Source: Thermodesulfovibrio yellowstonii DSM 11347 (lineage in GTDB: Bacteria > Nitrospirota > Thermodesulfovibrionia > Thermodesulfovibrionales > Thermodesulfovibrionaceae). From it: 64,000 bases of DNA. The position numbers and the translations under genes are program-made. How positions within the stretch are numbered: position 1 is the stretch's first letter; every line of letters starts with the position of its first letter. The stretch covers positions 558,001-622,000 of the forward strand of contig NC_011296.1 of assembly GCF_000020985.1 (NCBI RefSeq), written 5' to 3'. Shown piece by piece: positions 13,807 through 50,161 of the stretch. The notes under the pieces were generated by a model, which did not search any database, had not been told where the DNA came from, and saw nothing but the letters and a program-made list of their open reading frames with translations.

Positions 13807-15681
13807 TTACTTCTTAACAGTTGTTTTTTTCTGGACAGCCACCATAAGAATGGATATGGCTGCAGGAGTTACTCCGGGAATTCTCATTGCCTGACCGATT
13901 GTTCTTGGTGCTACTTCTGTGAGTTTTTGTATTACCTCCCTTGAAAGTCCAGGGATATTAAAATCAAAATTTTCAGGAATAAGTTTTTCTTCAAATTGTT
14001 TCATTCTTTCAACAAGCTCCATCTGTTTTGCAATATATCCCTCGTATTTAATATGAATCTCAACAAGCTCTTCAAGCTCTTTTGTTAAAGTCACCTCAGA
14101 AGGTGCGAATTTTTTTATAAAATCATAGTTAAGCTCAGGTCTTTTAAGAAGCTTATCAAGAAACGTGGCTTCTTCAACTGGAGTTGTTTGAGCTTCTATG
14201 AGTGCTTTATTAAGTTCTTCTGAAGGTTTAATTGTGGTAGTTTTGAGCCTTTTGATTTCTCTTTGGAGCAATTCCTTTTTCTTGTTGAATTCTTCATAGG
14301 TTTCTTCATCAACAAGGCCAATTTTATATCCATAATCTCTTAGTCTTAAATCAGCATTGTCATGTCTAAGTAGCAGTCTGAATTCAGCCCTTGAAGTAAA
14401 CATCCTGTAAGGCTCTTGTGTTCCTTTTGTTACGAGGTCATCAATTAATACTCCAATATATGCTTCATCTCTGCCCAGAATAAGAGGTGGTTGTTTTTTT
14501 ATCTTAAGTGCTGCATTAATCCCAGCCATCAATCCCTGTGCAGCAGCTTCTTCATATCCACTTGTTCCATTAATTTGACCTGCAAGATATAATCCTTCAA
14601 TTCCTTTCACTTCAAGAGTATGCCTTATCTGTGTAGGGTATACAAAATCATACTCAATTGCATATCCCGGCCTCATTATTTCAGCATCTTCAAGCCCAGG
14701 GATTGTTCTTACAAAAGCAACCTGTACATCATAGGGCAAAGATGTGGGAATTCCGTTTGCGTAATATTCTTTTCTACTCAATCCTTCAGGTTCAAGAAAT
14801 ATCTGATGTCTTGATTTATCTCTGAATTTTACAACTTTGTCTTCAATTGAAGGACAGTAACGGGGACCTATTCCCTTTATCTTTCCGCTATACAGGGGGG
14901 AACGGTCAAGATTATTAAGAATTATCTCATGGGTTTTTTCATTTGTATATGTTATATAGCACGGTACCTGAGGATTATTAATTTTCTTGGTGGAATAGGA
15001 AAATGGTATAGGAGGGTCATCACCGCCTTGTTCTTCTGTTTTTGAAAAATCTATTGTTTTTGCATCAATTCTTGGAGGGGTGCCTGTTTTAAGTCTTCCC
15101 ATCTTTAATCCGAGTTTTTTGATTGATTCTGAAAGCTTTTTTGATGGAAATTCTCCTGCTCTGCCTGCTTCAAAAGAATCAAGACCTATGTGGATAAGTC
15201 CATTTAAAAATGTTCCAGGTGTAATTATAACAGCTTTTGCACCGTAAAAAACACCAAGAGAAGTTATAATTCCTTTAACTTTACCATTTTCAACCACTAT
15301 CTCCTCAACCATTGCTTGTTTTATAGCAAGATTTTCCGTTGATTCAAGAATTTTACGCATATAAATATTGTAAAGGATTCTGTCAGCCTGAGCACGTAAA
15401 GACCAAACAGCAGGACCTTTTGAACGATTAAGCATTCTGAATTGTATACCTGCCATATCAGTTACCTTTGCCATAATACCACCCAGAGCATCAATTTCCC
15501 TTACAAGATGTCCTTTAGCAAGACCTCCGATTGCAGGGTTACAACTAAGTTGTGCTATTGTTTCAAGATATATTGTAAAAAGGGCTGTTTGTAGTCCCAT
15601 CTTTGCTGTAGCTAAAGCAGCTTCACATCCTGCATGTCCAGCTCCAACAACAATTATGTCAAAATCTTTTTCTTTATACAT
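13807..15681 (-). CDS. mnmG: tRNA uridine-5-carboxymethylaminomethyl modification enzyme MnmG
   Basis: A 624-residue FAD enzyme (GidA) that, with MnmE, modifies wobble U34 of certain tRNAs. The FAD motif is VVGAGHAGCEAALATAKMG; SCNPAIGGLAKGHLVREID and LNRSKGPAVWSLRAQADR are family signatures, and the C-terminal helical domain with RMKQFEEKLIPENFD is complete. The AAAGGG site upstream of ATG 15681 is well placed. A -10 box shared with the divergent HDOD gene lies at 15711-15716. It heads a four-gene operon with rsmG, tsaB and rimI. Confidence 0.96.
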   Translation of the reverse strand: MYKEKDFDIIVVGAGHAGCEAALATAKMGLQTALFTIYLETIAQLSCNPAIGGLAKGHLVREIDALGGIMAKVTDMAGIQFRMLNRSKGPAVWSLRAQADRILYNIYMRKILESTENLAIKQAMVEEIVVENGKVKGIITSLGVFYGAKAVIITPGTFLNGLIHIGLDSFEAGRAGEFPSKKLSESIKKLGLKMGRLKTGTPPRIDAKTIDFSKTEEQGGDDPPIPFSYSTKKINNPQVPCYITYTNEKTHEIILNNLDRSPLYSGKIKGIGPRYCPSIEDKVVKFRDKSRHQIFLEPEGLSRKEYYANGIPTSLPYDVQVAFVRTIPGLEDAEIMRPGYAIEYDFVYPTQIRHTLEVKGIEGLYLAGQINGTSGYEEAAAQGLMAGINAALKIKKQPPLILGRDEAYIGVLIDDLVTKGTQEPYRMFTSRAEFRLLLRHDNADLRLRDYGYKIGLVDEETYEEFNKKKELLQREIKRLKTTTIKPSEELNKALIEAQTTPVEEATFLDKLLKRPELNYDFIKKFAPSEVTLTKELEELVEIHIKYEGYIAKQMELVERMKQFEEKLIPENFDFNIPGLSREVIQKLTEVAPRTIGQAMRIPGVTPAAISILMVAVQKKTTVKK

Positions 15682-15707
15682 TTTTTCCCTTTAATTTTGT
15701 TTCCCTT

Positions 15708-15721
15708 TTTATTATAATAAA
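15708..15721. promoter_or_regulatory. Symmetric bidirectional -10 element between mnmG and the HDOD gene
   Basis: A perfect 14-bp palindrome, TTTATTATAATAAA, carries overlapping TATAAT hexamers on both strands (15713-15718 plus, 15711-15716 minus). The minus box suits mnmG with a leader of about 23 bases; the plus box ends 7 bases before the ATG at 15726. No strong -35 is seen on either side. Confidence 0.5.
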
Positions 15722-15725
15722 TGTG

Positions 15726-17288
15726 ATGAGTTTTCCTGTATTCAGACATACAATTTCTAAATTAAGAGAAGTTTTAGTAGAGGATTCAGATAAAATCTCT
15801 TTCTTGATAAAGTATGACCCTATAATTGCCTATCTTATTTTTCAGGAAGTTAATAAACCCTGTAGCAAAACAGAAATAACAAACTTCTCTCAAATGGTTA
15901 ACTATATTGGAACAAAAAAAATTGAACAGATAATTATTGAAAGAGATCTTTTCCTTGAAGTTGAAGATTTACATATATGGGTATATGGCATTTTAAGTGC
16001 TGAAATTTGTTCTCTTATTGCAGAGAAATTTTCTCATATTCATAGAGATGAAGCATTTTTTGTAGGCTTGCTACCATGCCTTGGTTTACTTTTTATGATG
16101 AATGATTTTCCTAAATACAGAAATATAATTCATTTTCTCGTTAAACTTCCTCTTGAAGACAGAGTCTTTCTTGAAGAATCAGTTTTTGGCACAAATCATA
16201 TTGATACTCTTAAAAGAAATATAATCTGTCCTCCTTTTAAGGAAGTTGTGAATATTCTAAACAGGATGTTTCCAAAAGATGGGCAAAAGGAGATAAAAAC
16301 ATCTGTTCCACAAAGGGGATCTACTTTGCAGAGTTTTTATGATATGGCATTGCTTTCAGACCTTGCTTCTTATGGTGCACAGGCTTTGATGTTTCCATCT
16401 GTTGTTGATAATCGCGAACTTTTTCTTGAACTTGCAAAAAGATACTTCAGAGTAAAAGAGTCTGATTCATTAGAAATTCTTCAAAATGCAATGGATAGAT
16501 TTATCTCAATTGCTCAGGAGTTTAATATCCTTGAAGAAATTCAGCTTTCAACTGAGAAAGTTTATCAACTAAGAAAGTTCAGATTTGAAACAAAAAATCC
16601 TGTTTTTGCAAATATGCTTAAAAATTTATTTGAAGAAAATGCAAAAGATAGAAACATTTTTATTTATGGTGAAAGAGCAGTTGGCAAAAGACTTCTTGCT
16701 GCAGCACTTTATACTGCAGATGATAATCCTCGTAGAGAAAAACCTTTTGTAATGATTTTTTGTGATATAGAAGAGGAAACTCTTGAAGAAGAGTTTTTTG
16801 GAATAAAAGAAGGATATTTTGGCAAAAAAGGTAAAAAAGGAGTTTTAAAACATGCAGAAGGAGGAACTCTTGTAATAAAAGAGTTTGATGCAATGCCTGG
16901 AGATTTTCAAGATAAATTTCAAAAAGCAATTCAGAACGGAAAATTTTATAGAGTAGGGGATATAACTCCAGTTGAATTTCCTGATATAAAATTTATTCTT
17001 GTAGGCAAAGAAGATATAAGAATTAAGGTTGCAAAAGGAGAATTTTCAGGTAATTTACTTAAACTGCTTAATCCTGTTTTTTTCAGAATACTTCCATTAA
17101 GAGAAAGAAGAGAAGATGTTTTTTATATTGCAAATGAGATAGTGAAAAAATATAATCTGAATATTGAAGATAGACTTGCACAACCAGAAATTATAGAAAA
17201 GCTTAAAACTGACCCATTCCCGAATAATCTTAGAGATTTAAAAAGATTTTTATTCCTTCTTTATATTCAAAAAATTCTTAAACCTTAA
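15726..17288 (+). CDS. HDOD-like protein fused to a degenerate sigma-54-activator-type AAA+ domain
   Basis: This is a 520-residue soluble protein. Residues 1-200 look like an HDOD/HD-related helical domain (FPVFRHTISKLREVL at the start). Residues 290-515 align by motif with the central AAA+ domain of NtrC-type activators: EFFGIKEGYFGKKG, AEGGTLVIKEFDAMP, then LLKLLNPVFFRILPLRERREDV. Key positions are altered. Walker A reads GERAVGKR with Arg instead of Ser/Thr, the Walker B acid pair is KE instead of DE, and the sigma-54-contacting GAFTGA loop is GYFGKK. No DNA-binding helix-turn-helix is apparent. ATP hydrolysis and sigma-54 activation are therefore doubtful. GTG at 15723 is an alternative start. 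Its 3' end overlaps the convergent gene by 39 bases. Confidence 0.75.
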   Translation: MSFPVFRHTISKLREVLVEDSDKISFLIKYDPIIAYLIFQEVNKPCSKTEITNFSQMVNYIGTKKIEQIIIERDLFLEVEDLHIWVYGILSAEICSLIAEKFSHIHRDEAFFVGLLPCLGLLFMMNDFPKYRNIIHFLVKLPLEDRVFLEESVFGTNHIDTLKRNIICPPFKEVVNILNRMFPKDGQKEIKTSVPQRGSTLQSFYDMALLSDLASYGAQALMFPSVVDNRELFLELAKRYFRVKESDSLEILQNAMDRFISIAQEFNILEEIQLSTEKVYQLRKFRFETKNPVFANMLKNLFEENAKDRNIFIYGERAVGKRLLAAALYTADDNPRREKPFVMIFCDIEEETLEEEFFGIKEGYFGKKGKKGVLKHAEGGTLVIKEFDAMPGDFQDKFQKAIQNGKFYRVGDITPVEFPDIKFILVGKEDIRIKVAKGEFSGNLLKLLNPVFFRILPLRERREDVFYIANEIVKKYNLNIEDRLAQPEIIEKLKTDPFPNNLRDLKRFLFLLYIQKILKP

Positions 17289-18140
17289 ATACTCAATTCC
17301 ACCAATAAGAGAAGCAAAAACCTGAGAAATAAACCATAAAAAAGACACTGCTACAACATTAGCATATCCTAAGGAATTACCAAAAAATAAGATAAAGCAC
17401 CATTCTCTTACTCCAACTCCTGATACTGATATTGGAAGCATTGAAATTAGTATTATAATTGGCATAAAAATAGCTAATTCAAAAAAAGATATTGATTGGT
17501 GAAGCCCAATAAAAATTATATAAACCGAAATAATTACAATAAATTGAACAAAAATAGACAAGATAAATGCCTTAATAATCTGTTTTTTGTTAAAACTTAA
17601 AATATAATCTTTCAACCCTTTAAAAAATTTAGTTTTTCCAAGCAATAAAAAGAAAATACTTCCTCCAATAAATCCTACAAAACTTACAGGAACAGTCCAT
17701 ATAAGCATTTGTTGTGGAAGCTTTGTATAAAATACACAAAAAAATATAAAGCCTATGAATAATAAAGCAGAAAGTCCTATATATCTTTCCATAAATACTG
17801 ATGCCAATGCTTGTTTGGTCCCTGTTTTTTCTTTAATCATAAAAATTTTTACTATATCTCCTCCTATGATTCCAGGTAAAACATTATTAAAAAATGCGCC
17901 TATTAGATAAAGAGAAAAAAGTTTTGAAATACTCAATTCTTGATAAGGAAGAAAAATTTTCCATCTCAATGTAGATATGTATGAAGAAATAATGTATAGA
18001 AAAGAGGCAAAGAAAAAAGCAAAAGGATTTATTAAAACAAAAGAGCTTAAAACATTAGAAAAATCAATTTTTTTAAGAAGATATAAGACTAATAAAACAG
18101 TTACTGTAAAGCGAATGCAAAATTTTATATATTGCTTCAA
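17250..18140 (-). CDS. YbhN/AglD-like flippase-related membrane protein (UPF0104, LPG-synthase TM type)
   Basis: A 296-residue integral membrane protein with about eight helices. The motifs FNNVLPGIIGGDIVKIFMI and MLPISVSGVGVREWCFI are typical of the lysylphosphatidylglycerol-synthase transmembrane family (UPF0104), here without the catalytic aminoacyl domain. Such stand-alone proteins often accompany lipid-linked sugar transferases. It overlaps the end of the GT2 gene by four bases and is the last gene of the cluster with the GT2 and the PAP2-GT39 fusion. Its 3' end runs 39 bases into the convergent HDOD/AAA+ gene. Confidence 0.82.
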   Translation of the reverse strand: MKQYIKFCIRFTVTVLLVLYLLKKIDFSNVLSSFVLINPFAFFFASFLYIISSYISTLRWKIFLPYQELSISKLFSLYLIGAFFNNVLPGIIGGDIVKIFMIKEKTGTKQALASVFMERYIGLSALLFIGFIFFCVFYTKLPQQMLIWTVPVSFVGFIGGSIFFLLLGKTKFFKGLKDYILSFNKKQIIKAFILSIFVQFIVIISVYIIFIGLHQSISFFELAIFMPIIILISMLPISVSGVGVREWCFILFFGNSLGYANVVAVSFLWFISQVFASLIGGIEYLRFKNFLNIKKE

Positions 18141-49037: not shown

Positions 49038-49328
49038 ATGATAAAAATTTCAATTGATAAAGCAAAACCTGGTATGAAGATTGCAAGAGATATAGTGAAT
49101 GAAGCAGGTATGGTGGTGATTACTGCTGGTAAAGAATTAACAGATGCTCTTATAGAAAAACTTTCAATAATGAATATAGATTTTGTGTATGTGGAAGGAC
49201 AAAAAGAGATGCCTCCCAAAGAAGAAGTTTTTGAGGAAATTGAGAAAAGATTTAAGAAAGCAACAGATTCATATACACTTTTGATAAAAAAAGCTTTGAA
49301 GACTCATATTGAGGAACTTTATAAATGA
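49038..49328 (+). CDS. Small DUF3391-like protein paired with an HDOD protein
   Basis: A 96-residue protein whose N-terminus (ISIDKAKPGMKIARDIVN, AGKELTDALIEKLSIMNID) resembles the short domain that precedes HD-GYP phosphodiesterases, followed by a helical tail. Here it stands alone. It overlaps the HDOD gene by four bases. TATAAT lies five bases before the ATG, right after the aspS stop, and there is no Shine-Dalgarno sequence at normal spacing. Confidence 0.65.
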   Translation: MIKISIDKAKPGMKIARDIVNEAGMVVITAGKELTDALIEKLSIMNIDFVYVEGQKEMPPKEEVFEEIEKRFKKATDSYTLLIKKALKTHIEELYK

Positions 49329-50161
49329 ATGCTCAGGAAGTAATCGCAAGAATTGAAAAAATAGAAGCTCTTCCTACAATCCCTCCGATTTTAAGAAAGA
49401 TTTTATCAGTTATAGAAGACCCTAAAGTATCTTTACAAAAAATAACAGAGTTTGTTTCATCTGATCCTACTTTGACAGCAAGAATTCTTAAAATGGTTAA
49501 TTCTCCTGTTTATGGATTCCCTGGAAGAATATCTTCTGTAAGTCATGCAATGGTAATTCTTGGATTGAATGCTGTAAAAGGACTTCTTTTAGGAGTATCA
49601 GTTTTTGAAATAATGCAAAAAAACATGATAGGGCTTTGGGAACATTCTCTTTCTACAGCCATATTTGCAAGAATTATTGCAATAAGAAAAGAACTGCAAT
49701 CTCCAGAGGAAATATCAATAGGAGGACTTTTGCACGATATTGGCAAAGTTATACTTATGATGTCTTTTAAAGATGAATATTTAAAACTAATTGAGTCTGT
49801 TCAAGAGAAAGATGATTTTTTATATGAGATTGAAAAACAATATTTTGGACTAACACATGCAGAAGTTGGAGGAATTATAGCAAAAAAATGGCATTTTCCT
49901 TTAAAATTGATAGAACCAATAATGTATCATCATAAGCCTAAACTATCTGAAAAGTTTCAAGTAGAGACTGCTATTGTTCATTTATCAAATATACTTGCAA
50001 TGGCAAGAGGAGTAGGGTATTCAGGAGAAATTTTTGTTCCTTCAGTTCATCCTTTTGTTTGGGAAATATTAAATCTTAAAGAAGAGGAAATTTTAGACAT
50101 ATTTAGAGAAGCAGAGGAACCTATCACCACTTCAGGAGAAATATTTCTTTCTGATGAATAA
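49325..50161 (+). CDS. HDOD-domain signalling protein
   Basis: A 278-residue HDOD protein: PTIPPILRKILSVIEDPKVS and SVSHAMVILGLNAVKGLLLG are the diagnostic segments. HD-type metal residues survive (GGLLHDIGKVI, THAEVGGIIAKKW, YHHKP), which is less usual for HDOD proteins and could permit phosphohydrolase activity. HDOD proteins usually act in motility, development or second-messenger signalling. It overlaps the small protein upstream and the GGDEF gene downstream. Confidence 0.85.
   Translation: MNAQEVIARIEKIEALPTIPPILRKILSVIEDPKVSLQKITEFVSSDPTLTARILKMVNSPVYGFPGRISSVSHAMVILGLNAVKGLLLGVSVFEIMQKNMIGLWEHSLSTAIFARIIAIRKELQSPEEISIGGLLHDIGKVILMMSFKDEYLKLIESVQEKDDFLYEIEKQYFGLTHAEVGGIIAKKWHFPLKLIEPIMYHHKPKLSEKFQVETAIVHLSNILAMARGVGYSGEIFVPSVHPFVWEILNLKEEEILDIFREAEEPITTSGEIFLSDE

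Follow-up and report, generated by a model that had tools for sequence, protein, structure and literature searches.

The window analysed here is a 64,000-nt stretch of the genome of Thermodesulfovibrio yellowstonii DSM 11347, and the gene under study encodes a protein that joins an HDOD domain to an altered AAA+ module of the sigma-54-activator type (Table 1). In the ORF translation, the gene begins with the ATG at 15726 and its stop codon ends at 17288; a GTG one codon 5′ of this ATG is the mechanical start of the ORF. Upstream lies a divergent ORF, which we take from its sequence to be mnmG (gidA), and downstream lies a convergent gene. The convergent 3′ overlap (17250–17288) is 39 nt in the window, and 39–60 nt in the 10 loci in which both ORFs were called.

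Table 1. Features at the locus, with coordinates in the window and residue numbers of the encoded protein
Feature	Coordinates	Strand	Residues	Basis or remark
mnmG (gidA) homologue	13807..15681	-		Divergent neighbour in 37/40 orthologue loci
Palindrome TATTATAATA	15710..15719	.		Between divergent mnmG and the gene; possible shared -10 element
HDOD + pseudo-AAA+ (sigma-54-activator type) CDS	15726..17288	+	520 aa	ORF and Pfam; 40 full-length orthologues
HDOD domain	15777..16199	+	18-158	Pfam PF08668, 36.1 bits, cut-off 22.9
AAA+ (Sigma54_activat)	16596..17075	+	291-450	Pfam PF00158, 87 bits, cut-off 20.2; predicted fold
Altered Walker A GERAVGKR	16668..16691	+	315-322	Alignment of 39 orthologues
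Switch-Asn position, Phe here	16758..16760	+	345	Alignment of 39 orthologues
Loop 1 FGIKEGYFGK, site of GAFTGA in activators	16797..16826	+	358-367	Alignment
Altered Walker B TLVIKE	16866..16883	+	381-386	Alignment of 39 orthologues
Sensor-I position	17007..17009	+	428	Our assignment
Arginine-finger positions	17046..17066	+	441 and 447	Alignment
AAA+ lid (AAA_lid_14)	17100..17252	+	459-509	PF25601, 23.3 bits, below cut-off of 27; modelled
LPG_synthase_TM membrane protein	17250..18140	-		Convergent; 3′ end overlaps the gene by 39 nt

A preliminary description of this DNA had proposed an HDOD domain followed by a sigma-54-activator AAA+ module, and Pfam bears this out, with both matches above their cut-offs. 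The HDOD domain scores higher in one orthologue (60.7 bits in L158), and the HDOD model finds no match in the divergent orthologue L151. Position 117, where our reading of the alignment places the HD pair of HD domains, is never His in the 39 orthologues (P 32, S 5, T 2), and the HDOD half of the family thus appears to contain no catalytic His-Asp pair. The protein ends 11 residues past the lid match. Pfam gives no match to a helix-turn-helix (HTH) or other DNA-binding domain in the 520 residues, nor any match after the lid, and no NCBIfam model reaches its cut-off. A second HDOD protein is encoded elsewhere in the window (49325–50161, + strand; 278 aa, 210 bits), and the HD and HDIG models match it as well. 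The host genome, one contig of 2,003,803 bases, encodes sigma-54 and has 12 further, weaker AAA+ matches, which are 27–35% identical to the present protein over the AAA+ part. Seven of the 12 entered the activator set described below; by the pattern that selected them, their activator motifs are ordinary.

The AAA+ part of 39 orthologues was aligned with that of 72 activators, and the orthologue counts were repeated on a family-only alignment. The 40th orthologue (L052) was read outside the 39-row counts. The activators derive from 83 ORFs in 87 loci picked by a loop-1 pattern, 72 of which were retained by a Walker A pattern. This choice partly predetermines what they show at Walker A and GAFTGA, but not at Walker B, the switch Asn, sensor I or the arginine fingers. 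We assigned the motif names to the alignment columns ourselves. On this basis, the P-loop residues Gly315, Gly320 and Lys321 are retained: the Walker A lysine is K in 38 orthologues and R in one, and K in all 72 activators. The residue that follows it is Arg322 in the window and Arg in 39 of 39 orthologues, so that the motif ends in GKR in 38 copies and GRR in one; in the activators this residue is E 70 times, S once and T once. The GKR ending noted in the preliminary description is therefore real, but the residue normally found there is acidic. An acidic residue rather than Ser/Thr follows the Walker A lysine of sigma-54 activators according to an excerpt of PMC7175178, and the change from E to R would thus invert the charge.

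The Walker B motif is altered at its core. As had been described, KE stands in place of DE: position 385 is K in 38 orthologues and T in one, as against D in all 72 activators. The Glu position next to it is E in every activator and varies within the family (D 17, E 13, N 6, Q 2, K 1). The GAFTGA motif is lost, also as described, although the segment that aligns with it is EGYFGK (362–367), one residue before the GYFGKK originally named. Its family form is [EG]-G-[FY]-x-G-x, in which the Thr is absent from 39/39 orthologues (activators T 66, S 6) and the second Gly is kept in 35. A candidate role for loop 1 as a basic nucleic-acid site was dropped, the mean charge being 2.8 compared with 2.2 in activators.

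The list of three lost motifs proved correct but short, since the switch Asn and both arginine fingers are gone as well. The switch position is F 18, H 16, Y 4 and N 1 in orthologues and N in 69 of 72 activators. The first finger is S in 35, N in two and L in two, and the second is L 14, V 12, A 6 and others, with no R in 39 orthologues; both are R in all 72 activators, and we take them to be R162 and R168 in PspF numbering. At sensor I, the orthologues have R 19, K 17 and Q 3 and the activators H 36, N 31 and K 5, and the sensor-II position 503 in the lid, R throughout the activators, is R 21, K 9 and others 9. Some losses are milder than they appear. G-[FY]-x-G persists in most copies, and 30/39 have Asp or Glu at the second Walker B position; likewise, the sensor-II Arg is present in 21/39, and the Lys found at sensor I in 17/39 also occurs in 5/72 activators. 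Because the same replacements recur in 38 or 39 of the 39 orthologues, the motif changes are not due to chance. In a midpoint-rooted tree, all 39 orthologues form one clade (support 1.0, stem 0.57), which makes one ancestral loss the simplest account.

Homology searches yielded 40 full-length orthologues in two families: 16 of 16 Thermodesulfovibrio genomes have one, as do 24 of 31 genomes listed for a second family (f3). Each genome of the genus, the present one included, has one orthologue; the other 15 show 63–84% identity and no internal stop. In a phylum sample, 22 of 198 genomes were positive at E ≤ 1e-33, from two families of the order, with f3 copies at 32–40% identity; in a larger sample, the 32 positives among 395 genomes all belong to f1 or f3 and represent 11 of 170 genera. 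A profile of the N-terminal half finds some match in 80 of 176 genomes of the order at E ≤ 1e-6, and it sets the 40 apart at 1.5e-72 or better, the next match being at 2.8e-14. Twelve loci read from these weaker matches (L161–L172) are other HDOD proteins, in whose printed ORFs no AAA+ part was seen by eye. In the one scan that reached beyond the phylum, the only full-length orthologue among the best 80 loci listed is that of Thermodesulfovibrio sp. N1 (L066; 80% identity over residues 1–519), and the other 79 match in the C-terminal part only, none starting before residue 208; these 80 omit known f3 members, so the scan does not establish absence outside the phylum. The gene is missing from 7 of the 31 listed f3 genomes, three of which are small (1.2–1.7 Mb). 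Two of the seven (G213, G217) have no mnmG match either and may reflect assembly gaps. In G155 and G215, and in G204 from another family, ORFs recognised by eye as part of the LPG-synthase/glycosyltransferase block are found upstream of mnmG, with no copy of the gene between. rpoN was found in 34 of 37 genomes; of the three that lack it, two have the gene and one does not, so sigma-54 does not track the gene. In the open-licence literature searched, we did not recognise the family.

Both halves of the protein are under purifying selection. In 12 hand-picked pairs, NG86 dN/dS is 0.03–0.15 for residues 1–285 and 0.03–0.18 for residues 286–520, with some dS values near or above 1 and hence unreliable. 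Mean pairwise identity is 0.485 in the AAA+ part, 0.553 in the lid and 0.428 in the HDOD domain. The AlphaFold2 alignment contained the window protein, L066, one other HDOD protein of the window and 34 activator domains. From it, the AAA+ fold is confidently predicted to be kept: pLDDT is 87–98 per ten residues, except for 75 and 77 at the ends of the AAA+ part. In the N-terminal half, for which two orthologues were in the alignment, it is mostly below 50. Structural comparison by VIA-align, spanning mainly residues 283–520, places FleQ and FlrC at the top (Z 25.5–25.0), in effect a tie, since NtrC4, NtrX and others follow within 1 Z; the rank-1 match has Z 25.5 and an rmsd of 1.9 over 229 aligned residues, and VpsR also appears (Z 21.8 and 20.3). 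One caveat is that activators dominate the model alignment, so that retention of the fold is tested weakly and catalytic geometry not at all.

The 44 nt between mnmG and the gene (15682–15725) contain a perfect palindrome, TATTATAATA, and the sequence TATTATA. This element is present in the 30 nt before the ATG in 37 of 37 mnmG-adjacent loci and in none of three relocated copies, compared with 1.1% of random 30-mers of window composition and 0.5% of window 30-mers; as the orthologues are related, the 37 do not represent 37 independent events. The gap from TATTAT to the ATG is exactly 7 nt in 17 of 21 f3 loci and 8 or 9 nt in the other four. In 16 loci of the genus it is 8–13 nt, and the window has an overlapping TATAAT with 7 nt between it and the ATG. 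With a 7-nt gap, transcription would begin on the ATG or close to it, giving a leaderless message. These observations suggest leaderless transcription from a promoter at TATTATA, which mnmG may use too; an excerpt of PMC12825309 describes a palindromic element in bidirectional promoters that use one -10 for both directions. The opposite strand of mnmG may contribute as well. Three consecutive mnmG codons, AAA GAG CAA, show zero synonymous variation in 19 f3 loci, in which all other degenerate codons among the 72 printed mnmG positions vary. (Of the 21 mnmG-adjacent f3 loci, 20 were entered, L052 being left out, and 19 were kept; the one dropped is probably L032, whose upstream string implies KAQD, not KEQD.) Read on the opposite strand, these codons give TTGCTCTTT, and counts by eye in two loci, L158 and L160, put 17 bp between TTGCTC and TATTAT, which is -35 spacing. 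It is thus possible that f3 genomes carry a -35 element inside mnmG codons; an alternative is that the invariant codons affect the start of mnmG translation. A consensus promoter scan did not list the element at 15710, which counts against a strong promoter.

How might such a protein act? The ATPase site has lost its Mg2+ ligands, its catalytic pair and the arginines that act in trans, which makes ATP hydrolysis very unlikely. Loss of the GAFTGA Thr makes contact with sigma-54 unlikely, and specific DNA binding is unlikely because an HTH was not found. The protein is thus expected to be unable to open sigma-54 promoters. We consider it reasonably probable, from the sequence comparisons, that the family is a vertically inherited pseudo-ATPase regulator in which an HDOD domain is joined to an inactive AAA+ module and which acts by binding. 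The HDOD half would receive a signal or dock a partner. Excerpts of PMC6543031 describe two HDOD proteins of relevance, SadB, a c-di-GMP-binding regulator of flagella synthesis, and GsmR, which affects flagellar gene transcription; their properties make second-messenger input possible for the HDOD half. The AAA+ scaffold would keep its fold and phosphate-binding loop while lacking the residues for Mg2+, hydrolysis, trans-activation and sigma-54 contact, and this half, perhaps holding nucleotide without Mg2+, would bind another regulator. The most plausible such regulator is one of the cell's real AAA+ activators, a choice for which we count the further AAA+ activators and sigma-54 encoded in the genome. 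One relocated copy, in G167, is followed by the genes for a histidine kinase and an intact NtrC-type activator, and it is the only hint towards a real-activator partner. It is one of three relocated copies: that of G207 (L192) precedes a REC/SpoIIE/HATPase protein, fliL, fliM, flhA and other flagellar-looking genes, and that of G206 precedes an EngA-type GTPase. With three contexts for three copies, the target is not settled by them. In a more speculative version, which we regard as unlikely, the protein carries a built-in cation. Arg322 and Lys385 align with the two acidic Mg2+-site residues of activators; with them, the retained P-loop might bind a nucleotide or some other phosphate ligand in a Mg2+-free manner, the ligand serving as a signal, and the protein might then join rings of real sigma-54 activators as a dead subunit and silence them under HDOD control.

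Several other readings deserve consideration. The missing motifs might simply mark a gene decaying towards loss, and the gene-less f3 genomes, the small ones among them and those with the LPG-synthase/glycosyltransferase genes still beside mnmG, would fit such a course. The preliminary description had held that homologues with intact Walker motifs in close relatives would point to decay; there are none among the 39 orthologues counted, nor in the 40th, read by eye. All 40 copies are full length, dN/dS is low in all 12 pairs, identical replacements are fixed in two families, and two of the absences may be assembly gaps. We therefore regard decay as extremely improbable in general, and within the genus the low dN/dS and the intact orthologues rule it out. 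Conversely, the earlier suggestion of a repurposed, probably non-hydrolysing protein is well supported, given the replaced catalytic positions and the purifying selection on the gene; that it may bind a real activator or a second messenger was a further part of that suggestion. The protein might instead regulate sigma-70 promoters independently of ATP hydrolysis, in the manner of the GAFTGA-less NtrC of Rhodobacter and Caulobacter. Such proteins are described in excerpts of PMC10274813, and VpsR is among the structural matches reported above, but the known examples bind promoter DNA and the present protein ends after the lid. Moreover, no regulator of this kind is known to combine all the losses seen here; we judge this reading quite unlikely.

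The genomic setting raises two further possibilities. The protein could work together with mnmG and rsmG, the adjoining genes for tRNA/rRNA modification, and may have a promoter in common with them. Its divergence from mnmG in most loci and the conserved -10-like element agree with this, as does an rsmG match, which sits next to mnmG in 11 of 12 such loci examined. However, three g30 genomes place the gene elsewhere, near the flagellar, two-component and EngA-type GTPase genes noted above, and a gene neighbourhood may last without a functional link, so a role of this kind seems rather unlikely. It is also conceivable, if doubtful, that the family regulates flagella or motility, like the HDOD proteins GsmR and SadB or like FleQ. 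The G207 copy, on the same strand as the flagellar-looking genes it precedes, and the control of flagella synthesis by c-di-GMP-binding SadB (PMC6543031, in excerpt) speak for it; this is, however, one context of 40. Moreover, FlhA was found in 36 of 40 gene-bearing genomes, compared with 5 of 7 f3 genomes that lack the gene, a co-occurrence that gives no support for a flagellar link. Three of the four genomes with the gene and no FlhA are 56–68% complete, but the fourth, G211, is rated 100% complete and also lacks FlhA.

What we describe, then, appears to be a lineage-specific, inactive-looking ATPase site maintained by selection. Sigma-54 activators that lack GAFTGA are already known. A family found throughout a lineage that keeps the fold, has other residues at the catalytic positions, shows no DNA-binding domain in the Pfam search and has an HDOD domain as partner would be a natural separation of AAA+ scaffold from AAA+ motor. 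If it binds real activators, it would represent a new way of restraining sigma-54 transcription; should its ligand be a nucleotide bound without Mg2+, the protein would count as an AAA+ sensor of a new type.

Among known systems, the sigma-54 activators (PF00158; FleQ, FlrC, NtrC1, PspF) share the AAA+ fold with its lid, with Z about 25 to FleQ and FlrC. The present family differs from them in the Arg that follows the Walker A lysine, in the Walker B Lys and in the absence of the switch Asn, the arginine fingers and GAFTGA; a Fis-type HTH is usual, though not universal, in activators, whereas none was found here. The sigma-70 regulators of the GAFTGA-less NtrC/VspR type, as excerpts of PMC10274813 present them, likewise lack the sigma-54 contact motif, but they act on promoters, whereas in the present family the ATPase site is replaced too and a DNA-binding domain was not found. 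SadB, HdpA and GsmR (PMC6543031, in excerpt) have an HDOD domain, as here. In the present family, by contrast, this domain, whose Pfam score in the window is modest, is fused to a pseudo-AAA+ module. Closer in lineage are the long HDOD proteins of the same order (L161–L172), several of them about 520 aa in length, which share the HDOD domain and have a different C-terminal half, GAF-like by eye in several.
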